Assembly (NCBI RefSeq): GCF_014323725.1
Contig: NZ_JABVED010000008.1
Location: 62,001-126,000 of the forward strand
Direction: 5' to 3'
Source of the DNA: Actinokineospora xionganensis
GTDB lineage: Bacteria > Actinomycetota > Actinomycetes > Mycobacteriales > Pseudonocardiaceae
Length of the DNA: 64,000 nucleotides
Shown here: piece by piece, positions 11,511-53,768 of the stretch
Numbering within the stretch: the stretch's first letter is position 1
Layout: every line of letters starts with the position of its first letter
Position numbers and translations under genes: made by a program
The notes under the pieces: generated by a model
Seen by the model: the letters and a program-made list of their open reading frames with translations, nothing else
Database searches by the model: none
Told to the model about the DNA's origin: nothing

Positions 11511-12836
11511 GTGGATGACTGGGAGACGCGGCCGATCCCGCGCGTGCGCGCGGACGACGAGCCTGAGCGCGCCTCCAGGGGGCGGCACACCGCGGGCCGT
11601 GCCCCCGAACCGGATGGCACGGGCCGACGCCGTCGTCGCGATCCCGATGACGACGTCGCGGTGACCGGCCACGGGCACGGACACGGGCCCGCTGCTCCGG
11701 CTTCGGCGCCAGTGCGGCGGCTCCTCACGTTCCTGGTGTCGCCGTTCGCCTTGGCCGCGGTCATCGGGATGGTGCTGCTGTTCCCCACCGGCGACGGGCC
11801 TGAGGGCGTCGGCTCCGGCCAGGAGCCGGTGCTCGGCACGGTCACCGCGGCGGAGGCCGGATCGTGCCAGTTCGGCGGTCAACCGGGGGCCGAGCCGAGC
11901 CCCGACCAATGTCTGACGGTCACGGTCGAGATGACCGACGGGCAGGCCAAGGGCAGTGAGATCCGCACCGCCGTCCCGGTGGAACCGAGCACCCCGCGTT
12001 TCGCGGTGGGCGACGACGTCGTGCTCAGCTACGGCGGCGGGGACCCGCTCAGCGGCGGGTCCTACCAACTCGTCGACTTCCAGCGCGGGATGCCGCTCGC
12101 CGTGCTCGCCCTCCTGTTCGCCGCCGCGGTGTTGCTCCTCGGACGGTGGCAGGGACTCAAGGCACTGGCGGGCTTGGGGCTGACGTTCGCGGTCCTGCTG
12201 CTGTTCGTGCTCCCCGCCATCCTCGGTGGGGAGAACCCGCTGCTGGTGGCGATCGCGGGCGCGGGCGTGATCATGTTCGCGGTTCTCTACCTGACCCACG
12301 GCTTCTCCGCGCGGACCACCACCGCGGTCCTGGGGACGATGGTCAGCCTGGCGCTCATCGGCGTGCTGAGCGCGGTCTTCGCGGCGGTGTCGCGGCTGAC
12401 TGGCTTGGACGAGGAAACAGCGAACCTCGTGGGGGCGCTCGGCACCGGCATAGACACGCGCGGGCTGCTGCTGGCAGGCATCGTGATCGGCGCGCTCGGT
12501 GTGCTCGACGACGTGACCGTCACCCAGACCAGCGCCGTGTGGGAACTGCGGGCCGCCAACCCGACCCTGACCTGGCGCGAGTTGTACGCGGCGGGCCTGC
12601 GGATCGGCCGCGACCACGTGTCGTCGGCGGTCAACACCCTGGTGATGGCCTACGCGGGCGCGGCCCTGCCGGTGTTGCTGTACTCGTCCCTGTCGGACGT
12701 GGGCCTGGGCGCGCTGCTGGGGTCGCAGTCGATCGCGCAGGAGATCGTGCGGACGCTGGTGGGCAGCATCGGTCTGGTGGCGGCGGTTCCGGTCACCACA
12801 GCGCTGGCCGCGTTGGTGGCGGTTCGGGAGGAGTGA
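11511..12836 (+). CDS. YibE/F family integral membrane protein
   Basis: A 441-residue membrane protein. The first ~65 residues are Arg/Asp-rich and include a GHGHGHG stretch. A helix at about 72-90 leads to an extracytoplasmic domain (~90-195), and seven or so further helices follow. The segment LLLAGIVIGALGVLDDVTVTQTSAVWEL near residue 325 is the conserved YibE/F core. The family may be a transporter but no substrate is established. GTG start with a weak GGG upstream. It ends convergently 8 nt from the next gene's stop. Confidence 0.82.
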   Translation: MDDWETRPIPRVRADDEPERASRGRHTAGRAPEPDGTGRRRRRDPDDDVAVTGHGHGHGPAAPASAPVRRLLTFLVSPFALAAVIGMVLLFPTGDGPEGVGSGQEPVLGTVTAAEAGSCQFGGQPGAEPSPDQCLTVTVEMTDGQAKGSEIRTAVPVEPSTPRFAVGDDVVLSYGGGDPLSGGSYQLVDFQRGMPLAVLALLFAAAVLLLGRWQGLKALAGLGLTFAVLLLFVLPAILGGENPLLVAIAGAGVIMFAVLYLTHGFSARTTTAVLGTMVSLALIGVLSAVFAAVSRLTGLDEETANLVGALGTGIDTRGLLLAGIVIGALGVLDDVTVTQTSAVWELRAANPTLTWRELYAAGLRIGRDHVSSAVNTLVMAYAGAALPVLLYSSLSDVGLGALLGSQSIAQEIVRTLVGSIGLVAAVPVTTALAALVAVREE

Positions 12837-12844
12837 GTCTGCCG

Positions 12845-13486
12845 CTACGGCAGATTCGCCACGAACTTGGTGATCGCTTCAGTGCGCAACCGCTGAGCCA
12901 ACTTCCCCTGCGGCGCAACCGAAGCGAGCTGGAACAGCGGCCGCTCCGGTGCGGCTTCGCCCCGTGCCTCCGCTCGCAGCTGGGCCACAAGCAATTGTGA
13001 GAAAACCAATCCGCTGGTGTTCTCGCTCCCGGCGAGCGCGTCCGCCAACCGCCGCAGGGCGAGGATGCCGAGTTCCCGCCCACCCGTGCCCGAGTAGGCC
13101 GCGAGCGCGATGTTGATGGACTTTCCCTTGGCCCCGACCAGAAGCCCGACCGTGCGCACACCGCGCACATCCGTCACCAGCAAGTCGAGGCGTTCGACGA
13201 CGCGGAGGTCGACGATCTTGCTGCCGATCGTCTCCGCCACCACGCGGGTGCCCTGCAGCCAGATCCGGCGACGGGCGGTCATCCAGGTCAGCAGGGCGAG
13301 TGTTCCGGCGACCACGGCCGCGGTGACCAAGCCAGGGGTCTGCCCGAAGATCAGCCCGACGACACCGCCGACGGCCGCGCCGAAGAGCAGGGCGACCGCG
13401 ACGGTCACGCAGCCCCGGCGGCGGGATGGGTCGGCCAGGGTCAGTGGGATCCGCTCCGGCTCGGCCGGAGGCTGGGGGTCGGTCAT
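12845..13486 (-). CDS. Two-helix membrane protein, conserved hypothetical
   Basis: A 213-residue protein with two adjacent transmembrane helices at about residues 27-70, a positively charged turn (TARRRIW), and a cytoplasmic C-terminal domain of about 140 residues. I recognise no named family. The stop of the metallo-hydrolase upstream (13489) is 2 nt before this ATG, so the two genes form one transcript. In mycobacteria hisS occupies this position after the metallo-hydrolase; here it does not. Confidence 0.65.
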   Translation of the reverse strand: MTDPQPPAEPERIPLTLADPSRRRGCVTVAVALLFGAAVGGVVGLIFGQTPGLVTAAVVAGTLALLTWMTARRRIWLQGTRVVAETIGSKIVDLRVVERLDLLVTDVRGVRTVGLLVGAKGKSINIALAAYSGTGGRELGILALRRLADALAGSENTSGLVFSQLLVAQLRAEARGEAAPERPLFQLASVAPQGKLAQRLRTEAITKFVANLP

Positions 13487-13488
13487 GG

Positions 13489-14199
13489 TCAGATGCCTCG
13501 CCCGCGGCCGCGGTGCGCCGACGCGGGGTCGGTCAGGTCGACCATCCCGGTGAGGAACGGGTTGCTGACCCGCTCGCGGCCGATCGTCGTGGTCGGGCCG
13601 TGTCCCGGGAGCACCACGGTCTCGTCGTCGAGCGGCAGGATCTTCGAGCGCAGCGACGCCGTCATCCGGTCCATCGACCCGCCGGGCAGGTCGGTGCGGC
13701 CGATCGATCCCGCGAAGAGGGTGTCGCCGGAGAACAGCAGCAGGCCGCCCTCCTCGGTGGCCGAGCGGAACGCCACCGAGCCCTCGGTGTGGCCGGGGGT
13801 GTGGTCGACGGTCAGCTTCAGGCCCGCGAGATCGAGTTCGACCCCGTCGGTCATCTCCTTGACCTCACGCGGCTCGCGCATCTCGAGGCCGCCGAAGAAG
13901 GACGCCGACTCGCGGCTCAGGCCGCGCAGCGGGTCGCTGAGCATGTAGCGGTCGTCCGGGTGGATCCACGCGGGCACGTCGTTGCCGTCGCAGACCGGGG
14001 TCACCGAATAGGTGTGGTCGAGGTGCCCGTGCGTCAAGAGCACCGCGACGGGCGAGAGCCGGTGCTTGCGCAGCGCCTCGGCGATGGGCTCCTCAGCGTC
14101 CTGACCAGGGTCGATGATCACACACTGGCCACCCTCCTCGGGCGCGATGAGGAAGCAGTTGGCCTGGAAGGCCCCAGTCGGAAAGCCGACGACAAGCAC
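13489..14199 (-). CDS. MBL-fold metallo-hydrolase (glyoxalase II-like, Rv2581c type)
   Basis: A 236-residue metallo-beta-lactamase-fold hydrolase with the binuclear zinc motif THGHLDH (His57, His59, Asp61, His62), a second His in TPGHTEG, Asp in SGDTLF and the terminal His in LPGHGP. GTG at 14199 has GGAGG 6 nt upstream. It probably cleaves a thioester such as S-lactoylglutathione or a mycothiol analogue, but that is inference. The position divergent from a ppiB cyclophilin and near relA is the same as in M. tuberculosis. Confidence 0.88.
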   Translation of the reverse strand: MLVVGFPTGAFQANCFLIAPEEGGQCVIIDPGQDAEEPIAEALRKHRLSPVAVLLTHGHLDHTYSVTPVCDGNDVPAWIHPDDRYMLSDPLRGLSRESASFFGGLEMREPREVKEMTDGVELDLAGLKLTVDHTPGHTEGSVAFRSATEEGGLLLFSGDTLFAGSIGRTDLPGGSMDRMTASLRSKILPLDDETVVLPGHGPTTTIGRERVSNPFLTGMVDLTDPASAHRGRGRGI

Positions 14200-45424: not shown

Positions 45425-46078
45425 TCAGGCCCCGAGCATCTGCTGCATGCGGCGGATCTCCGCGGACTGAGAGGCGGTGACGTCGTCGGCCATCTCCTGC
45501 ACCCGCACGTCAGCGCCCGTGGTCTTCACGGCGTCGGCCATCGTGAGCGCGCCCTGGTGGTGGGCGATCATCAGCCGCAGGAACAGCTTGTCGAACTCGG
45601 CGCCCTTGGCCGCCTTGAGCTGGTCCATCTGCTCCGGGGTGGCCATGCCCGGCATGCCCGCATGGGCGTTGTGGCCGCCATGACCGGCCGGGGGCACGGG
45701 CGCCTTGTTGTGCTTCTTCAGCCAGGCGTCCATCATCTCGATCTCCGGGCCCTGCGCGTCCGCGATACGCGAAGCGAGCCCCTTGACCTGCCCGTCCGCG
45801 CCGCGATCGGGGACCAGCACGGCCATCTCGATGGCCTGCCGGTGGTGCACGATCATTTCGCGCACGTAGGTGACGTCAGCGTCGTTCGGCGGTGTCTCAG
45901 GACGCGCGCTGCCCGCTTCCTCAGGGGACAGCGTCCGGTTCGACTCCCCCGGCTTGCCCGGCTGGAGCACCGGCGCGGTCGGCTTCGCGCCGATGGGCTC
46001 TTCGCTCCCACTGCACGCGGTCAGCCCCAGCAGTGCGCCGAGCACCACGATTCCGCCCGCCATCCGCCGCAACCTCAT
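45425..46078 (-). CDS. DUF305 lipoprotein, His/Met-rich
   Basis: A 217-residue lipoprotein with lipobox LTAC (Cys22). The DUF305 helices carry HHRQAIEMA (HH at 78-79) and HHQGALTMA (HH at 173-174), and between them is a His/Met-rich loop (HGGHNAHAGMPGM, residues 133-145), the sort of sequence that binds copper or silver. ATG at 46078; GTG/TTG codons just upstream are alternatives. It is divergent from the first of three propeller genes with a 169-nt shared promoter region. DUF305 proteins next to LVIVD-repeat proteins are, as I recall, a recurrent pairing in actinobacteria. Confidence 0.85.
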   Translation of the reverse strand: MRLRRMAGGIVVLGALLGLTACSGSEEPIGAKPTAPVLQPGKPGESNRTLSPEEAGSARPETPPNDADVTYVREMIVHHRQAIEMAVLVPDRGADGQVKGLASRIADAQGPEIEMMDAWLKKHNKAPVPPAGHGGHNAHAGMPGMATPEQMDQLKAAKGAEFDKLFLRLMIAHHQGALTMADAVKTTGADVRVQEMADDVTASQSAEIRRMQQMLGA

Positions 46079-46247
46079 CAAGAGCACGCCCTCTCCCGTC
46101 CAGCAGCACAACGACCGCAAGGTACTACGACATCCGTTGCCGTTCACTCCTCGACTGGGAAAAAGCCAGGCCAGGAAACGCTTCTGCGAAAGCGTTCACC
46201 AGCCAAATAATGTCTTGACCCCACTTCCTGCAGCGAGGGGATCTTCC

Positions 46248-47657
46248 GTGACCCACTCCAAACGCCGTCTGGCTTGCGCGGCCGCGGCGGGTGTAGCCGT
46301 CGCCGCCGTCGTCTCCGTCGTCTCCGTCGGCACTTCCACCGCGGCCGCGGCGCCGCCGCCGCCCGGTCCGGGCGTCGACCAGATCGTCAGCAGCCCGAAC
46401 ATGAAGCAGCTGGCGAACGTCCCCGCCACCGCCCCGCTATCGGGCGCGAGCTCCACCGGCACCGACCTGGCGTTCACCGGCAATTACGCCATCCAGGGCA
46501 ACTACCTGGGCTTCACCGTCTACGACATCACCACGCCGAGCGCGCCGAGGATCGCCGGCCAGGTGCTGTGCCCCGGCGCGCAGAACGACGTCTCGGTGCA
46601 CGGGAACCTGCTCTTCCTGTCCACCGACTCGCGGCGCTCGAACGACACGTGTGAGTCGACGTCCTCCTCCAGCGGCACCGTCTACTGGGAGGGGATCAAG
46701 ATCTTCGACATCGCCGACAAGGCGAACCCCCGCTACATCAAGAGCGTCGAGACGGCCTGCGGGTCGCACACGCACACCCTCGTCCCGGACAAGGCGGGCA
46801 CGGACGTCTACCTCTATGTCTCCTCTTACAGCCCGTCGACCACGCTGTCGAAGTGCCAGCCGCCGCACGACAAGATCTCGATCGTGAAGGTGCCGCTCGC
46901 GGCACCGACCACGGCGTCGGTGGTGGCGACCCCGGTGCTGTTCCCGGACGGCGGCAACGCGGGGAGCAGCAAGACCTCGGCCACCACCGGCTGCCACGAC
47001 ATCACCGCGTACCCGTCGAAAGACCTCGCCGCGGGCGCGTGCATGGGAGACGGTGTCCTGCTCGACATCGCCGACCGGGGCAACCCCCGGGTTATCGACC
47101 GCGTCCAGGACAACGCCAACTTCGCGTTCTGGCACTCGGCGACGTTCAACAACGCGGGCACCAAGGTGATCTTCACCGACGAGCTCGGCGGCGGCGGCGC
47201 GGCCACCTGCAACAAGAAGACCGGTCCGACCCGCGGCGCGGACGGCATCTACGACATCACCGGCGCGGGCGACACCCGTGACCTGGTGTTCCGCAGTTAC
47301 TTCAAGATCCCGCGGTATCAGACCAACACCGAGAACTGCGTCGCCCACAACGGCTCGCTGGTCCCGGTCGCGGGCAAGGACATCATGGTCCAGTCCTGGT
47401 ACCAGGGCGGCGTGTCGGTGTGGGACTTCACCGACTCGGCCGGCCCGCGCGAAATCGCCTTCTGGGAGCGCGGCCCGCTGCCCGACGGTGGCTCGGGCGG
47501 CACCTGGTCGGCGTACTACTACAACGGCCACATCTACTCGTCCGACCTGGTGAAGGGCCTCGACGTGCTCGACATCAGCGACCCGGCGACCGACGGCGCG
47601 AAGAGCGTGCGGTTCACCGAGCTCAACGTGCAGACGCAGGGCTCCTACGCGGGCTGA
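46248..47657 (+). CDS. Secreted LVIVD-type beta-propeller protein 1
   Basis: A 469-residue exported protein with a basic start (SKRR) and hydrophobic signal peptide cleaved near TAAAA (~residue 35). The body has repeated ~50-residue units (GFTVYDITTPSAPRI, KIFDIADKANPRYI, VLLDIADRGNPRVI) of LVIVD/propeller type. Residues conserved in all three paralogues are Cys171-x2-His174-x-His176, Cys203-x3-His207, Cys249-His250, Cys265, His296, Cys321 and Cys364-x2-His367. These could be disulfides and a metal site. GTG at 46248 has GAGGGG 8 nt upstream. Enzymatic role unknown. Confidence 0.8.
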   Translation: MTHSKRRLACAAAAGVAVAAVVSVVSVGTSTAAAAPPPPGPGVDQIVSSPNMKQLANVPATAPLSGASSTGTDLAFTGNYAIQGNYLGFTVYDITTPSAPRIAGQVLCPGAQNDVSVHGNLLFLSTDSRRSNDTCESTSSSSGTVYWEGIKIFDIADKANPRYIKSVETACGSHTHTLVPDKAGTDVYLYVSSYSPSTTLSKCQPPHDKISIVKVPLAAPTTASVVATPVLFPDGGNAGSSKTSATTGCHDITAYPSKDLAAGACMGDGVLLDIADRGNPRVIDRVQDNANFAFWHSATFNNAGTKVIFTDELGGGGAATCNKKTGPTRGADGIYDITGAGDTRDLVFRSYFKIPRYQTNTENCVAHNGSLVPVAGKDIMVQSWYQGGVSVWDFTDSAGPREIAFWERGPLPDGGSGGTWSAYYYNGHIYSSDLVKGLDVLDISDPATDGAKSVRFTELNVQTQGSYAG

Positions 47658-47814
47658 CCCGGCCGGGTGGTGGTCCTCTCGGATCCCGGGAGGGCCTTCA
47701 CCCAGGTGCGCCAGATTACCGGTTAAACGGCAAATGGGAAAAATAATCACTGTTTGGAAGTAGATCCACGGGAGAGACTGCGCGGATAGACGTCCCATGA
47801 ATGAGGGGAACAGC

Positions 47815-49233
47815 GTGAGGGCGACACGTTTCGGTTCTACATCCAGATACGTCACGGCCGCGGTCATCGGCGCGACCACCATCTCTCTCTCCCTCTGGGG
47901 AACCGCGTCCGCGGCAGCCCAGAACGGGCCCGACCTCGGCCAGGAGAACTTCGTCACCAGCCCGAACGTGCGGCAGGTCGCGAACGTTGCGGCCACCGCA
48001 CCGCTGCTCGGCGGCGGCGCCAGGTCCTCGGACCTCGCGTTCACCGGTGACTACGCCATCGGCGGCAACTACAACGGCTTCACGATCTACGACATCAAGC
48101 ACCCGAAGAAGCCCACGATCGTCAGCCAGGTGCTCTGCCCCGGCTCGCAGGGCGACGTGAGCGTGCACGGCGACCTGCTCTTCTACTCGGTCGACGCCCG
48201 ACGCAGCGACGACTCCTGCAACTCCGTGTCCCAGAACGACGGAAGCAAGCCGTACTGGGAGGGCGTGCGGATCTTCGACATCAGCGACAAGGCGAACCCG
48301 AAGTACATCAAGGCGGTCGAGACCGACTGCGGCTCGCACACGCACACGATGGTGCCGGACAAGGCGGGCACCGACGTCTACCTCTACGTCTCGTCCTACG
48401 CACCGTCGGCCTCGCTGCCGAAGTGCCAGCCGCCGCACGACAAGATCTCCGTCATCAAGGTCCCGCTGGCGAACCCGAGCGCGGCCGCGGTCAACTCCAC
48501 GCCGGTGCTGTTCCCGGACGGCGGCAACGCCGGAACCCCCGGCAGCTTCCCGAACCACTACGTGCGCCAGACCAGTGGTTGCCACGACATCACCGCGTTC
48601 CCCGAGAAGGACCTCGCCGCGGGCGCCTGCATGGGTGACGGCGTGCTGTTCGACATCTCCGACCGCGCGGCTCCCCGCGTGATCGAGAAGATCCAGGACA
48701 ACGTGAACTTCGCGTTCTGGCACTCGGCGACCTTCAACAACGACGGCACCAAGGTGGTCTTCACCGACGAGCTCGGCGGCGGCGGCGCGGCCACCTGCAA
48801 GCCGGAGATCGGCCAGACGCGCGGCGCGAACGGCGTGTACGACATCACGGGCACCGACCTCGGCTTCAAGAGCTACTTCAAGATCCCGCGGCACGACAGC
48901 GAGATCTGCGTGGCGCACAACGGCTCGCTGATCCCGGTGGCGGGCAAGGACATCATGGTCCAGTCCTGGTACAAGGGCGGGGTCTCGATCTGGGACTTCA
49001 CCGACTCGGCCAACCCGCGCGAGATCGGGCACTTCGACCCGCTGCCCTCGCGCATCGGCCCGTCGGGCACGTGGTCGGCGTACTACTACAACGGCTACAT
49101 CTACTCGAACGACGGCCAGCAGGGCCTTGACGTGCTGCAGATCAACGATCCGCTGACCGATGAGGCGAAGTCGGTTCACCAGAAGGTGTTCAACGCCCAG
49201 ACCCAGTACTCGCTGCGTCACGGCAACAACTGA
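47815..49233 (+). CDS. Secreted LVIVD-type beta-propeller protein 2
   Basis: A 472-residue paralogue of its neighbours with a signal peptide ending near ASAAAQ. All blocks of protein 1 are kept: CGSHTHT, KCQPPHDK, PVLFPDGGNAG, GCHDITAF, AAGACMGDGV, FAFWHSATFNN, TDELGGGGAATC and CVAHNGSL. GTG at 47815 has GAGGGG 6 nt upstream, while the ATG at 47797 has none. The 157-nt gap before it includes an imperfect hairpin at about 47672-47702 that may end the first gene's transcript. Confidence 0.8.
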   Translation: MRATRFGSTSRYVTAAVIGATTISLSLWGTASAAAQNGPDLGQENFVTSPNVRQVANVAATAPLLGGGARSSDLAFTGDYAIGGNYNGFTIYDIKHPKKPTIVSQVLCPGSQGDVSVHGDLLFYSVDARRSDDSCNSVSQNDGSKPYWEGVRIFDISDKANPKYIKAVETDCGSHTHTMVPDKAGTDVYLYVSSYAPSASLPKCQPPHDKISVIKVPLANPSAAAVNSTPVLFPDGGNAGTPGSFPNHYVRQTSGCHDITAFPEKDLAAGACMGDGVLFDISDRAAPRVIEKIQDNVNFAFWHSATFNNDGTKVVFTDELGGGGAATCKPEIGQTRGANGVYDITGTDLGFKSYFKIPRHDSEICVAHNGSLIPVAGKDIMVQSWYKGGVSIWDFTDSANPREIGHFDPLPSRIGPSGTWSAYYYNGYIYSNDGQQGLDVLQINDPLTDEAKSVHQKVFNAQTQYSLRHGNN

Positions 49234-49325
49234 TCCAGCCACCGTTCTCGGGCTCGTGGATGGCGAAGATCACACCGCCCCGAGATACTGCGTGGTACAG
49301 ACCTGCAGGTAATGAAGGGAAAAGA

Positions 49326-50753
49326 GTGAAGTCAATTCACTTCGACAAGAGGTCTCGCAGAGCAGCGCTCGCGGTGCTCGGTGTGGCCGCGGCGGGTCTG
49401 TCCGTCGTGGGCGGGCCGGCCGCCGCCGCACAGGACTTCCCCGCCAATGACGAGATCGTCACCAGCGCCAACGTCTCCCATGTCGTCAACGTCGCGCCGA
49501 CCGGTCCGCTGTCCGGGCCCGCCTCGGTGGGCACGGACCTCGCCTTCAGCGGGGACCACGCCATCGTCGGCAACTACCTCGGATTCACGATCTACGACAT
49601 CAAGAACCCGAAGAGCCCGACGATCACCAGCCAGGTGCTCTGCCCAGGCGCGCAGAACGACATCTCGGTGAGCGGGAACCTCGTGTTCCTGTCCACCGAC
49701 GCGCGTCGCAGCGACAACTCGTGCAACTCGACCTCCCAGAACGACGGCACAAAGCCGTACTGGGAGGGCATGAAGATCTTCGACATCACCGACAAGAAGA
49801 ACCCGAAGTACGTCGCCGCTGTCGAGACCGACTGCGGGTCGCACACCCACACGCTGGTGCCGGACAAGAAGGGCAAGGACGTCTACCTGTACGTCTCGTC
49901 CTACGGTCCGTCGGCCGCGCTGCCGAAGTGCCAGCCGCCGCACGACAAGATCACGATCATCAAGGTCCCGGTCAAGAACCCGGCGGCCGCGGCGATCGTG
50001 TCCACCCCGGTGCTGTTCCCGGACGGCGGCCACCCGGGCAAGCCCGGCACCGTCGACACCGGCTACGTCGTGCCCACCAGCGGCTGCCACGACATCACCG
50101 TGTTCCCGGCCAAGAACCTGGCCGCGGGCGCGTGCATGGGTGAAGGCGTGCTGATGGACATCTCCGACCGGGAGAAGCCGCGGGTGATCAACACCGTGCG
50201 CGACGACGATCACTTCGCGTTCTGGCACTCGGCGACGTTCAACAACGCGGGCACCAAGGTCGTCTTCACCGACGAACTCGGCGGCGGCGGCGCGGCGACG
50301 TGCAACGCCAAGATCGGCCCGACCCGCGGCGCCAACGGCATCTACGACATCACCGGCCGCGGCGACGAGCGCAAACTCGAGTTCCGCAGCCTGTTCAAGA
50401 TCGACCGTCACCAGACCGACTCGGAGAACTGCGTCGCGCACAACGGCTCGCTGATCCCCGTTCCCGGCAAGGACATCATGGTCCAGGCCTGGTACATGGG
50501 CGGCGTGCAGGTGTTCGACTTCACCGACTCGCGGGCGCCGAAGAAGATCGGCTTCTTCGAGCGGGGCCCGGCCGCCGACCCGAACACCGGTGGCGGAATC
50601 TGGTCGTCGTACTACTACAACGGCTACATCTACGCCTCGGACATCGGCAAGGGCTTTGATGTCATCGACATCAACGACCCGGCGACGAACGTGGCGCGCG
50701 GTCACAAGTGGACTGAGCTGAACGTCCAGACGCAGTACGGCTACGGCAAGTAG
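49326..50753 (+). CDS. Secreted LVIVD-type beta-propeller protein 3
   Basis: Third tandem copy, 475 residues, signal peptide ending near AAAAQD. It contains the same conserved Cys/His blocks; the insertion around GHPGKPGTVDTGYVVPTSGCHD is longer than in copy 1 and resembles copy 2, so copies 2 and 3 may be the most recent duplicates. GTG at 49326 follows AAGGGA. A strong terminator closes the cluster at 50764-50802. Confidence 0.8.
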   Translation: MKSIHFDKRSRRAALAVLGVAAAGLSVVGGPAAAAQDFPANDEIVTSANVSHVVNVAPTGPLSGPASVGTDLAFSGDHAIVGNYLGFTIYDIKNPKSPTITSQVLCPGAQNDISVSGNLVFLSTDARRSDNSCNSTSQNDGTKPYWEGMKIFDITDKKNPKYVAAVETDCGSHTHTLVPDKKGKDVYLYVSSYGPSAALPKCQPPHDKITIIKVPVKNPAAAAIVSTPVLFPDGGHPGKPGTVDTGYVVPTSGCHDITVFPAKNLAAGACMGEGVLMDISDREKPRVINTVRDDDHFAFWHSATFNNAGTKVVFTDELGGGGAATCNAKIGPTRGANGIYDITGRGDERKLEFRSLFKIDRHQTDSENCVAHNGSLIPVPGKDIMVQAWYMGGVQVFDFTDSRAPKKIGFFERGPAADPNTGGGIWSSYYYNGYIYASDIGKGFDVIDINDPATNVARGHKWTELNVQTQYGYGK

Positions 50754-50805: not shown

Positions 50806-51414
50806 TCAGACGGTCTCCACGACCTGGTCGTACTCCAGGCGCGGGCCGCGCGGGAAGGCGGCGTTCACACCGGGGTTGCCGATGTTGACCACGACAAGCG
50901 AGCGCCTGCGGCCGTCGGGGAAGAACTCGCGGTCGACAGCGGCGGCGTCGAAGCCCGCCATCGGCCCGGCGGCCAGCCCGGCGGCGCGCACCCCGAGCAC
51001 GAAGTACCCGACCTGCAGCGCGGCGTTGAACCTGGCGTTGTCGGTCCGGTGGGTCTCGTCGGCGTAGTAGTCCTTGGCGCCCGGCAGGTGCGGGAAGAGA
51101 GTGGACAGGTGCTCGTGGAAGTCCACGTCGGCGGCCAGGATCGCGACGAGGGGCGCGGCCGCGGTCTTGGCGCGGTTGTTCTCGGAAAGCAGCGGCAGCA
51201 GTCGCTCGCGCGCCTCGTCGGACCGCACCAGCGTCACACGCAGCGGCTGACCGTTCATCGCGGTGGGAGCCCACTTGACCAGGTCGTAGATCGCGCGGAT
51301 CTGGTCGTCGGTCACCGGCTCGGCGGAGAAGGTGTTCGCGGTGCGGGCCTCGCGGAACAGCAGGTCCTGGGCGTCCTGCGGGAGGACGAGGGTGTCGTTC
51401 AGGGTGGCGGTCAT
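50806..51414 (-). CDS. Nitroreductase family protein (RutE/malonic-semialdehyde-reductase-like)
   Basis: A 202-residue FMN-dependent reductase: FREARTANTFSAEPVTDDQIRAIYDLVKWAPTAMNGQPLRV at the start (FMN site, residues ~20-60), then the catalytic core, and GRRRSLVVVNIGNPG near the end. It resembles RutE, which reduces malonic semialdehyde. ATG at 51414 has AGGGG 6 nt upstream; an earlier GTG at 51444 is less likely. Two TTGAGAGCTT repeats lie upstream and resemble the sites at the marR gene at 40.8 kb. Confidence 0.88.
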   Translation of the reverse strand: MTATLNDTLVLPQDAQDLLFREARTANTFSAEPVTDDQIRAIYDLVKWAPTAMNGQPLRVTLVRSDEARERLLPLLSENNRAKTAAAPLVAILAADVDFHEHLSTLFPHLPGAKDYYADETHRTDNARFNAALQVGYFVLGVRAAGLAAGPMAGFDAAAVDREFFPDGRRRSLVVVNIGNPGVNAAFPRGPRLEYDQVVETV

Positions 51415-51459
51415 CAGGTCCCCTAGGTCGGGCGGGAGGTTCACTGATGGCCAACTTGA

Positions 51460-52236: not shown

Positions 52237-52622
52237 CCGCGCAGCGTAAAGCCGCTCACGCCCACGCGCTCGGGATGATCAGGCCCCGTGCGGACGCGCG
52301 ACGTCAGAGCTTTCCAGACCATGCCGGAACTCGCCTCCCGACCGGCGGAGCCGGATCGCGCGGCTGACCAAGACGGGCAGCGGACCGACTGCCGAGTTCA
52401 CCGTCAGCTGGTAGCCGTCTCCCTCGTCCCCCTGCCCGAGCCGGGCAGGGGGACGGGCCGCGCCAGCCGCCTGATTGCTCCGGTTTCGCGTGCTTGCCGA
52501 GGTCGGAAGTGCTCACGGCCGCCAATGATCGGCAACCCATGTCGGTGCGCCACCAGTTGGTTGTAGCTTCCGTGGCAGCGGCACGTGTCGGCGATGCCGA
52601 GTCGAGTGAAAGGGGGGCCTCG
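52237..52622. other. Gene-free stretch with one perfect hairpin
   Basis: About 386 nt between the leftward gene at 51517-52236 and the lipase at 52623. I see no coding frame of convincing composition. The stretch holds a perfect 14-bp inverted repeat, CGTCCCCCTGCCCG (52425-52438) and CGGGCAGGGGGACG (52442-52455), with a 3-nt loop. It probably carries the promoters of the lipase gene and perhaps a small transcript ended by the hairpin. Confidence 0.5.
52425..52455. terminator. Perfect 14-bp GC hairpin, terminator or small-RNA end
   Basis: The stem is described with the gene-free stretch at 52237-52622. It is not adjacent to any annotated stop codon, so it either terminates a small unannotated RNA or acts in the lipase leader. 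Confidence 0.5.
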
Positions 52623-53768
52623 ATGCGAGGCATCCTCGTCCGCCTGCCCGCCATCGGCTGCGCCCTGCTCCTCGCCGTCCTCGCCGCACCCGCGGACGCG
52701 GTCGCCGCCGCGTCGGATACGCCGGGCACGGTGATCAGCGCGAAGCCACTCGCCGAGTCGGGGTGGTCCAAGCTGAAGCCGGAGGCGACGGCCGCCCAGC
52801 ACGTCACCTACTGGTCGACCCAGCGGGTGGCGGGCAGGCCGACCACGGTTGCGGTGACCGGTGCGGTGTTCCGACCCGCGGGCACACCGCCGCCGGACGG
52901 CTGGCCGGTGGTCGCCTGGGCGCATGGCACGGTCGGCATCGGCGACGGCTGCGCGCCGTCGGCGGGCGAGCGCTCCGACCGGGACGCGGCCTACCTCAAG
53001 CACTGGCTCGCGCAGGGCTACGCGGTGGTCGCCACCGACTACGCGGGCCTCGGCACTGCGGGCGTGCACGCGTACCTGGACGGCGCCACGGCCGCGTACA
53101 ACACGGTGGACATGGTGCGCGCCGCGCAGGACGTCGAGCCGTCGCTGGCGGACAAATGGGTGGTGATCGGCCAGTCTCAGGGCGGCCACGCGGCGCTGTT
53201 CACCACCAACCTGGCCGCCGAGTACGCCCCGGAGAGCGACTTCCGCGGTGGCGTGGCGACCGGACCGCCGTCGAACCTGGAGTCCGTGGTCAGCCTGGCG
53301 AACCCGCTGCTGCCGGACCTCCAGCAGCCAGGGCTCACCACGTTCCTTGCCTACATCCTGGCCGGTCTGCCGACCGCGCGACCGGACATCGATGTGAACA
53401 GCTACCTGACCGAGCTGGGCCGGGCGGTCGTCGCGGACGCGGCGGAACTCTGCTACCCCGAGATGGTCGAGCGGGTGCGTGGCGTGTCCATCGGCAGCCT
53501 GTTCGGCAAGCCGTTGACCGATCCGCAGTTCCACAGCGCCATCAGCAGCGTGATGAAGGTGCCCGTGCGCGGCTACGACCAGCCGTTCTTCATCGGCCAG
53601 GGCACGTTCGACACCGTGGTCTGGGCGCCGCTGACGGCGAAGCTCGCCGCCGAACTCACTCTCAACTGGCAGCCGTTCACGGTGAAGACCTACCCCGCCG
53701 ACCATGGCGGGACGATGGCCGCGTCCCTGCCGGACACGACGCCCTACGTGGCGAAGCTGTTGAGGTAG
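52623..53768 (+). CDS. Secreted lipase (secretory-lipase-type alpha/beta hydrolase)
   Basis: A 381-residue protein with a signal peptide (residues 1-~28, ending ADAVAAA). Alpha/beta-hydrolase features are WAHGT (~99-103, oxyanion region), the nucleophile Ser185 in GQSQGG, and a His near the end in YPADHGG. Active-site Asp is probably in the TFDTVVWAPL segment. It resembles the fungal/actinobacterial secretory lipase family (PF03583-like). ATG at 52623 follows AAGGGGGG. Substrate range unknown. Confidence 0.82.
   Translation: MRGILVRLPAIGCALLLAVLAAPADAVAAASDTPGTVISAKPLAESGWSKLKPEATAAQHVTYWSTQRVAGRPTTVAVTGAVFRPAGTPPPDGWPVVAWAHGTVGIGDGCAPSAGERSDRDAAYLKHWLAQGYAVVATDYAGLGTAGVHAYLDGATAAYNTVDMVRAAQDVEPSLADKWVVIGQSQGGHAALFTTNLAAEYAPESDFRGGVATGPPSNLESVVSLANPLLPDLQQPGLTTFLAYILAGLPTARPDIDVNSYLTELGRAVVADAAELCYPEMVERVRGVSIGSLFGKPLTDPQFHSAISSVMKVPVRGYDQPFFIGQGTFDTVVWAPLTAKLAAELTLNWQPFTVKTYPADHGGTMAASLPDTTPYVAKLLR

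Follow-up and report, generated by a model that had tools for sequence, protein, structure and literature searches.

In the genome of Actinokineospora xionganensis, a gene for a DUF305 lipoprotein faces three tandem genes for exported seven-bladed LVIVD propellers, which raises the question of what function such a lipoprotein and such propellers might share. The locus was analysed within a 64,000-nucleotide stretch of contig NZ_JABVED010000008.1 (hereafter the window).

Composition of the DUF305–propeller locus

The DUF305 gene is located at 45425..46078 on the minus strand and encodes 217 aa from the likely ATG start at 46078, which was preferred to the full extent of the ORF (45425-46147). 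The plus strand carries W1 (46248..47657), the closest of the three to the DUF305 gene, W2 (47815..49233; alternative ATG at 47797), and W3 (49326..50753; alternative ATG at 49260). The initial annotation of a lipoprotein opposite three tandem exported propellers was confirmed, and its coordinates hold. The divergent intergenic region between the DUF305 gene and W1 (46079..46247, 169 bp) contains an inverted repeat, AACGCTT-6-AAGCGTT, at 46177-46196. A k-mer comparison of this region with 66 regions of relatives (from 79 paired loci, 13 of which were left out for want of a recognized lipobox) revealed no operator common to the relatives; the commonest k-mers came from highly similar divergent regions, which we attribute to kinship among Streptomyces. 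Matches in a promoter and terminator scan were not above the noise level.

The DUF305 protein carries the lipobox LTAC in its signal peptide and was called a lipoprotein by inspection. Two MxxHHxxxxxM motifs (MIVHHRQAIEM and MIAHHQGALTM) are separated by a His/Met-rich linker (GHGGHNAHAGMPGM). The protein passed the cut-offs of both Pfam DUF305 (173.7 bits; cut-off, 27) and NCBIfam CopM (106.1 bits; cut-off, 90) and matched the CopM structure 5ffa_A (E 2.2e-19). Its sequence had been described as resembling copper-binding motifs, and by the NCBIfam cut-off it is indeed of the CopM copper-binding type. CopM has been reported to bind Cu(I) tightly and to function in copper resistance (PMC4335983). 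The protein shares the two family assignments and the paired HH motifs with CopM of Synechocystis but differs from it in being a lipoprotein, as judged by inspection, and in being partnered with a propeller. Another DUF305 protein, BAR11 of Saccharothrix, has been described as an elicitor (PMC5900052).

Each of W1, W2, and W3 opens with a Sec-type signal, as judged by inspection, and passed the cut-off of Pfam LVIVD (PF08309; 27.8, 23.8, and 25.9 bits, respectively; cut-off, 20.2). W1 and W2 are each 65% identical to W3, and all five His- or Cys-containing motifs that had been listed as shared (CGSHTHT, CQPPHDK, GCHDIT, FWHSATFNN, and CVAHNGSL) were found in the three proteins. AF2 models were of high predicted quality for both W1 (pLDDT 89.0; pTM 0.91) and W3 (pLDDT 84.7; pTM 0.86). 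Distant propeller similarity (39-49 bits) was detected to the choice-of-anchor B family (TIGR04312), in which membership was rejected because the scores of 38.7, 42.3, and 49.2 bits lie below the cut-off of 100. Among the propellers of 80 related loci, a crude search in which many windows were mis-cut found RR in 27 and a Tat-like pattern in four.

W3 clusters with those Actinokineospora propellers that occur as single copies, and W2 is closest to W1, with a longer branch. Three propeller copies were present in one of the 80 related loci, two in another, and a single copy in 78, counted as far as the flanks reach. The set of three, which had been proposed as the functional unit, therefore gives way to a conserved unit of one propeller and one DUF305 protein. 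The genome of A. xionganensis also carries a tandem propeller pair on contig 6.

Conservation of the DUF305–propeller pair

The pair is intact in 79 of the 80 related loci, the single miss being at a contig end. In a phylum-wide sample, a DUF305 gene was found within 3 kb of 20 of the 41 strong propeller matches (E<=1e-50), as compared with about 0.12 expected, and the pairing is thus more than local chance. These 20 pairs comprise 11 divergent, seven downstream same-strand, and two convergent arrangements, indicating that the link between the two genes survives rearrangement. Conserved gene pairs in other genomes, which the initial annotation had named as potential support, therefore exist both in related loci and phylum-wide. 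The remaining 21 propeller matches, among them one member of the contig 6 pair, have no DUF305 gene within 3 kb; two of them are tandem partners located 3.3-3.4 kb from a DUF305 gene, and nine are distributed in seven genomes without any DUF305 gene.

The paired DUF305 proteins are also related to one another. One group of the DUF305 tree (SH-aLRT 84) holds 32 of the 34 paired and one of the 25 unpaired proteins, and the paired/unpaired label requires three changes on the tree, compared with 19.2 when shuffled. M16, H19, H20, M111, and H114 are retained in 34/34 paired rows and H115 in 33. The first HH pair is likewise retained in all 34 paired and all 25 unpaired rows, and the HH/Met motifs do not distinguish the two classes in these rows. 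A crude lipobox pattern was present in 62 of 79 paired DUF305 proteins.

Other neighbours of the pair vary; the window aside, thrS was found in five of the 35 loci that were compared. An ORF cluster recurring in eight of 36 loci was set aside, as it proved to contain ABC transporter ATPases at scattered positions. Outside the phylum, a propeller gene followed by a DUF305 gene was found on a plasmid of Paraburkholderia, a betaproteobacterium, although this DUF305 protein scored 62.4 bits against CopM, below the cut-off of 90. Proteobacterial plasmids gave 15 matches, of which eight were inspected (Sphingobium and seven others) in incomplete gene tables; among the seven, one has an adjacent DUF305 gene, five are annotated without one in the stretch, and one is unannotated.

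Invariant residues and a candidate metal site

In an alignment of 52 propellers with identities down to 30%, 24 residues are invariant. Each blade contributes one of these at the start of its innermost strand, namely Asp71, Asp112, His173, His255, His301, His372, and Trp426 (52/52), and Glu317, which is equally invariant, lies just past strand B of blade 5. In W3, these ring residues (D71–W426 plus E317; 52/52 rows, AF2 strands) span 49536..50603 on the plus strand, and they are also present in W1 and W2. We read the inner-strand residues and Glu317 as the pattern of an axial metal site, the ring geometry being that suggested by strand positions in the predicted model. The invariant motif His had previously been taken to mark a metal or catalytic site, which stands for H173, H255, H301, and H372, whereas H175 and H206 proved variable in distant relatives. 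The four constant His still point to a bound metal or a catalytic site. Eight Cys are invariant in 86 close propellers and, by strand positions, are located in loops of the ring's face, so some of the His could be structural. The propellers without adjacent DUF305 that were aligned retain the ring, indicating that it is independent of DUF305 adjacency. In the propeller alignment, Met271 and Met385 gave no clean split as soft-ligand marks of DUF305 pairing.

On this basis, we consider it about an even chance that the pair is a two-gene module of an exported metalloenzyme and a CopM-type metal-binding partner. In this reading, the mouth of the central channel of the secreted propeller would hold one or two metal ions, coordinated by His173, His255, His301, and His372, whereas Asp71, Asp112, and Glu317 would be additional ligands or would provide a base and a second shell. 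The propeller would probably be an enzyme acting on a small-molecule substrate outside the membrane, and the lipid-anchored DUF305 protein may capture copper at the membrane face and either deliver it to the propeller or keep it away from wrong sites. The unpaired DUF305 gene near a copper ATPase gene and the nearest solved fold, both treated below, also count in favour of this reading. In A. xionganensis, the propeller appears to have been copied to three. The propeller family was found in Streptomyces and other soil actinobacteria, many of which carry the pair; it looks like an uncharacterized metal-dependent enzyme that is exported and accompanied by a dedicated metal helper. A more tentative proposal, which we regard as less likely than not, is that the propellers are copper enzymes that are exported, share an axial His4/Asp2/Glu centre, and form a widespread family so far undescribed, that a distinct DUF305 subfamily evolved to load them with copper, and that the module has spread as two genes through Actinomycetota and beyond.

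To our knowledge, the clients of DUF305/CopM proteins are mostly unknown, and a propeller travelling with one DUF305 subfamily provides a testable client. If metal is bound, a new class of exported metalloenzymes would lie behind the labels ‘LVIVD repeat’ and ‘DUF305’, and copper handling would be linked to a fold whose sole solved relative hydrolyses organophosphates.

Similarity to a phosphotriesterase and alternative functions

That relative, the phosphotriesterase (haloalkylphosphorus hydrolase; 5hrm, 5ioj) of Sphingobium TCM1, is the best Foldseek match of both W3 and W1 (E 6e-14 and 5e-13), with a lead exceeding three orders of magnitude in either model, and is followed for W1 by paraoxonase and 6-phosphogluconolactonase. 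It is also the only PDB sequence relative of the propeller family profile (E 7.5e-4), and the title of its structure paper speaks of a seven-bladed propeller that houses a binuclear metal centre. These matches would suit a hydrolase of the TCM1 lineage that acts on a phospho-ester or lactone with Mn, Zn, or Fe, whereas the DUF305 protein protects it from copper or serves otherwise, a reading that we regard as rather doubtful. The fold match is modest (TM-score 0.58-0.63; rmsd near 6), identity is low, and the similarity is limited to the LVIVD strands, with the profile alignment out of register across the first blades; W3 as a single sequence had no PDB sequence match up to E 1. Among the positions presumed to provide metal ligands in the solved TCM1 sequence, 201 and 407 are Glu and 389 and 475 are His, whereas 246 and 294 proved to be Lys, so that this set of positions was partly wrong. 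The spacing from H372 to GGV equals that from H475 to GGV in the enzyme, and a window scan based on the presumed ligand positions ranked the H372 window second on H475 but failed to align H301 and E317 with H389 and E407. A piece of the TCM1 enzyme also matched the propeller of the Paraburkholderia pair weakly (E 0.07). However, a copper-binding partner would be odd beside a Mn/Zn hydrolase. The annotation of the Sphingobium gene inspected shows no DUF305 gene up to 2.5 kb away.

It is unlikely that the pair is non-enzymatic and captures or sequesters copper, with both proteins binding it outside the membrane and so serving resistance or acquisition. Such a role would accord with that of CopM in resistance, with the location of another, unpaired DUF305 gene of this genome, ~4 kb away from one for a copper P-type ATPase, and with anchor domains (SLH, FIMAH) on two of five long propellers scanned, but no copper transport gene occurs among the family-checked neighbours (20 + one, a part of all neighbours), and the invariant His/Asp/Glu ring looks catalytic rather than storage-like. 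Still less probable is a structural or adhesive surface propeller in which the invariant His and Cys merely stabilize turns. LVIVD repeats have been described for surface proteins of archaea and bacteria (PMC2447325), and the anchors on the two relatives and the Cys-rich face agree with this, whereas a purely structural role hardly accounts for ionizable residues that stay invariant at one place in six of the seven blades at 30% identity, or for the DUF305 partner.

The comparison with methanethiol oxidase offered in the initial annotation fits poorly, and a copper-dependent thiol oxidase of the SELENBP1 type is very improbable, despite the propeller fold, the His motifs, and the similar arrangement of a propeller with a copper helper. 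Pfam SBP56 gave 11.5 bits on W3 (cut-off, 34) and did not list W1 or W2, none of the three propellers contains the HH and HxxH motifs that SELENBP1 requires (PMC10362175), and the ring composition is different; membership was rejected on the score and the missing motifs. SBP56 was not among the 50 matches shown in each of three structural listings, and the 50 matches listed by VIA-align, without SBP56, carotenoid oxygenase, or nitrous oxide reductase, were mostly WD40-type propellers; absence from these listings does not speak against any of the three folds.

No paper linking LVIVD with DUF305 was found in the open-licence PMC literature; a DUF305/propeller operon has been noted once before, in Starkeya novella. 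There, Snov_0990 (DUF305) adjoins Snov_0991, which is labelled as a YVTN rather than an LVIVD β-propeller. The two genes, 12 bp apart, probably share one promoter under the control of the ECF sigma factor RpoE1, and Snov_0991 is highly expressed on tetrathionate (PMC6527743), an observation that would favour a thiol oxidase.

Pairing of propeller and DUF305 genes

An LVIVD propeller gene and a DUF305 gene form a real, conserved two-gene module. The window contains, at the coordinates given in the initial annotation, a DUF305 lipoprotein gene (45425-46078, minus strand) and, divergent from it, three tandem exported propeller genes on the plus strand, W1 (46248-47657), W2 (47815-49233) and W3 (49326-50753). 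The five motifs described there as shared (CGSHTHT, CQPPHDK, GCHDIT, FWHSATFNN and CVAHNGSL) were each found in all three propellers, which exceed the Pfam LVIVD cut-off and did not reach those of the choice-of-anchor B family and SBP56 (NCBIfam and Pfam profiles).

The initial annotation had looked to conserved gene pairs in other genomes for support, and such pairs were found in two sets. GTDB species genomes were scanned with W3, and of the 569 loci confirmed the best 80 were used, a set leaning toward close relatives because only these were taken. In 79 of them, the DUF305 gene is divergent from the propeller gene and sits immediately upstream of it; in the sole exception (L071), the contig ends 178 bp ahead of the propeller frame. 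As a less biased test, 296 genomes were drawn from the phylum Actinomycetota, of which 51 contain a propeller match (E ≤ 0.001) and 84 a DUF305 match. With the window trio left out, 41 strong propeller matches (E ≤ 1e-50) remain in 29 genomes, and 20 of them have a DUF305 gene within 3 kb, compared with 0.12 expected from copy number and genome size; two more, being tandem partners, have one at 3.3-3.4 kb. Both genes are present in 22 of these genomes and adjacent in 17, the non-adjacent cases being G000 (window trio left out), G001, G042, G236 and G279. Nine matches are located in seven genomes without a DUF305 match and thus could not adjoin one. The phylum DUF305 matches were taken without the weakest ones, and a re-search of the surroundings of the 21 non-adjacent propellers with our own profile (frames of ≥150 aa, up to the contig limits) revealed no additional DUF305 gene within 3 kb. 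Among the 20 adjacent pairs, 11 are divergent, 7 have the DUF305 gene downstream on the same strand and 2 are convergent.

A pair from outside Actinomycetota was found in L143 (1639-4028), a plasmid record of Paraburkholderia megapolitana (NZ_CP041744.1), where a propeller gene (LVIVD, 26.9 bits) is followed after 68 bp on the same strand by a DUF305 gene (118.5 bits), which at 62.4 falls short of the CopM cut-off of 90. No DUF305 gene is seen in five further proteobacterial stretches that are annotated and contain LVIVD. Three proteobacterial LVIVD proteins of ~420 aa (L144, L146 and L149), annotated as hypothetical, reside within transporter or catabolic gene runs and, as judged by eye, carry His at similar inner-strand-like places; these may possibly be enzymes.

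When the ORFs of 36 loci were compared, the propeller and DUF305 genes (plus their shadow frames) were the only ones to recur nearly everywhere. The recurring unit therefore consists of two genes, because the other neighbours differ between loci: thrS is near six, including the window, all from Pseudonocardiaceae; a cluster found in eight represents ABC transporter ATPases at scattered positions; and the 20 neighbour ORFs family-checked at seven distant loci include many housekeeping genes (e.g. ddl, tyrS and ffh) and no copper genes. Two of five long propellers scanned carry C-terminal anchor domains (FIMAH in L109, 7647-10229; SLH in L111, 6673-8964), which is consistent with a cell-surface location. 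Near another pair, L108 encodes an SLH/fn3 protein (11709-13976) that does not match LVIVD.

A tree was built from 59 of 120 DUF305 sequences: the window protein, 21 from near pairs (20 taken from the 79, plus one more), 12 from far pairs and 25 unpaired ones; the window duplicate and one partial sequence were left out. One group (SH-aLRT 84) includes 32 of the 34 paired sequences and one unpaired, the DUF305s of far pairs L110 and L116 falling outside. The paired/unpaired label requires 3 changes, compared with 19.2 in shuffles; with 26 open branches out of 56 internal ones, the fine structure is unsure. HH/Met motifs did not separate paired from unpaired sequences.

History of the window genes

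The most likely start of the DUF305 gene is the ATG at 46078 and that of W1 the GTG at 46248, leaving a gap of 169 bp. This gap contains an inverted repeat (AACGCTT-ctgcga-AAGCGTT, 46177-46196), followed by GTTCACC overlapping by one base, which is a possible operator; this repeat was not noticed by eye in those divergent regions of relatives that were looked at.

W1 and W2 each share 65% identity with W3. A tree of 64 propellers places W3 with the seven Actinokineospora propellers included (support 98) and W1 and W2 as sisters (support 91), so the trio seems to comprise an ordinary copy and a separate duplicate. Two Nonomuraea loci, L045 and L064, contain three and two tandem propellers, respectively, each beside one DUF305 gene, and these fall apart from the window trio. 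A W3 query of the window's own genome gave five matches, namely the trio and a tandem pair on contig 6 (L121, contig 6: 137000-156000; 8172-9644 and 9702-11090), which shows 40 and 35% identity to W3 and keeps the ring residues described below; the own-genome search gave no DUF305 match on this contig. Downstream of W3, the window encodes a nitroreductase-fold protein (50806-51444, minus strand; NCBIfam malonic semialdehyde reductase, 263 against a cut-off of 152). The window also encodes a probable secreted lipase (52494-53768, plus strand; Pfam LIP, 52 bits against 23).

Predicted axial site of the propeller

There is strong sequence evidence that the propeller has an axial active site, and this predicted site probably binds metal. 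The AlphaFold2 models are confident (W3, pLDDT 84.7 and pTM 0.86; W1, 89.0 and 0.91), and by our reading of the strand list W3 has seven four-stranded blades, the N-terminal strand closing the last. D71, D112, H173, H255, H301, H372 and W426 lie, blade by blade, at the start of the innermost strand or at most two places off, and from propeller geometry these seven ring residues would converge at the channel mouth. Across 52 aligned propellers (12 close and 40 from distant loci, found at E ≤ 1e-15, weaker matches being left out; identity to W3 down to 30%), only 24 positions are invariant, including the whole ring, E317, and C106, C133, C254, C326 and C369; H175, H206, M271 and M385 vary. The W1 counterparts of the ring are identical.

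Foldseek against the PDB ranked the Sphingobium TCM1 phosphotriesterase first for the W3 and W1 models, at E 6e-14 and 5e-13, respectively, ahead of other entries that begin at 2.5e-9 and 1.9e-9; the TM-score is only 0.58-0.63. This enzyme has a binuclear metal centre, according to a title in the reference list of PMC11656708. Among PDB sequences, the family profile found it alone (E 7.5e-4, via the LVIVD strands), and W3 as a single sequence found nothing up to E 1. The spacing from H372 to GGV in W3 equals that from H475 to GGV in the phosphotriesterase, whose metal ligands we take to include H389, E407 and H475. Kinship is thus supported by the Foldseek rank, the profile match and this spacing; equivalence of the metal ligands lies outside that support, H475 ranking second for H372 in a profile-window scan in which H301 and E317 did not fall on H389 and E407.

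Possible copper links of the DUF305 partner

The DUF305 lipoprotein is a copper-type partner. Copper as the metal, its transfer to the propeller and a reaction of the propeller are all putative. It scores 173.7 bits against Pfam DUF305 and 106.1 against the NCBIfam CopM cut-off of 90, and among solved structures its relatives are CopM (E 2.2e-19 at best) and further DUF305 chains. According to PMC4335983, CopM is part of copper resistance, and its apparent KD for Cu(I) is 3.7e-16; the corresponding source for the copper residues of SELENBP1 is PMC10362175. The DUF305 query gave eight matches in its own genome. One unpaired copy has a weak Csp1 copper-storage match ~2.6 kb off, below the cut-off (24.6 against 100), and another (L169, C1:423000-435000) has a gene for a copper P-type ATPase (TIGR01511, 526 against 397) ~4 kb away.

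In the open-licence literature, we found no paper treating LVIVD and DUF305 together. PMC6527743 describes, in Starkeya novella, a YVTN propeller gene separated by 12 bp from a DUF305 gene, under ECF sigma control and with high expression on tetrathionate.
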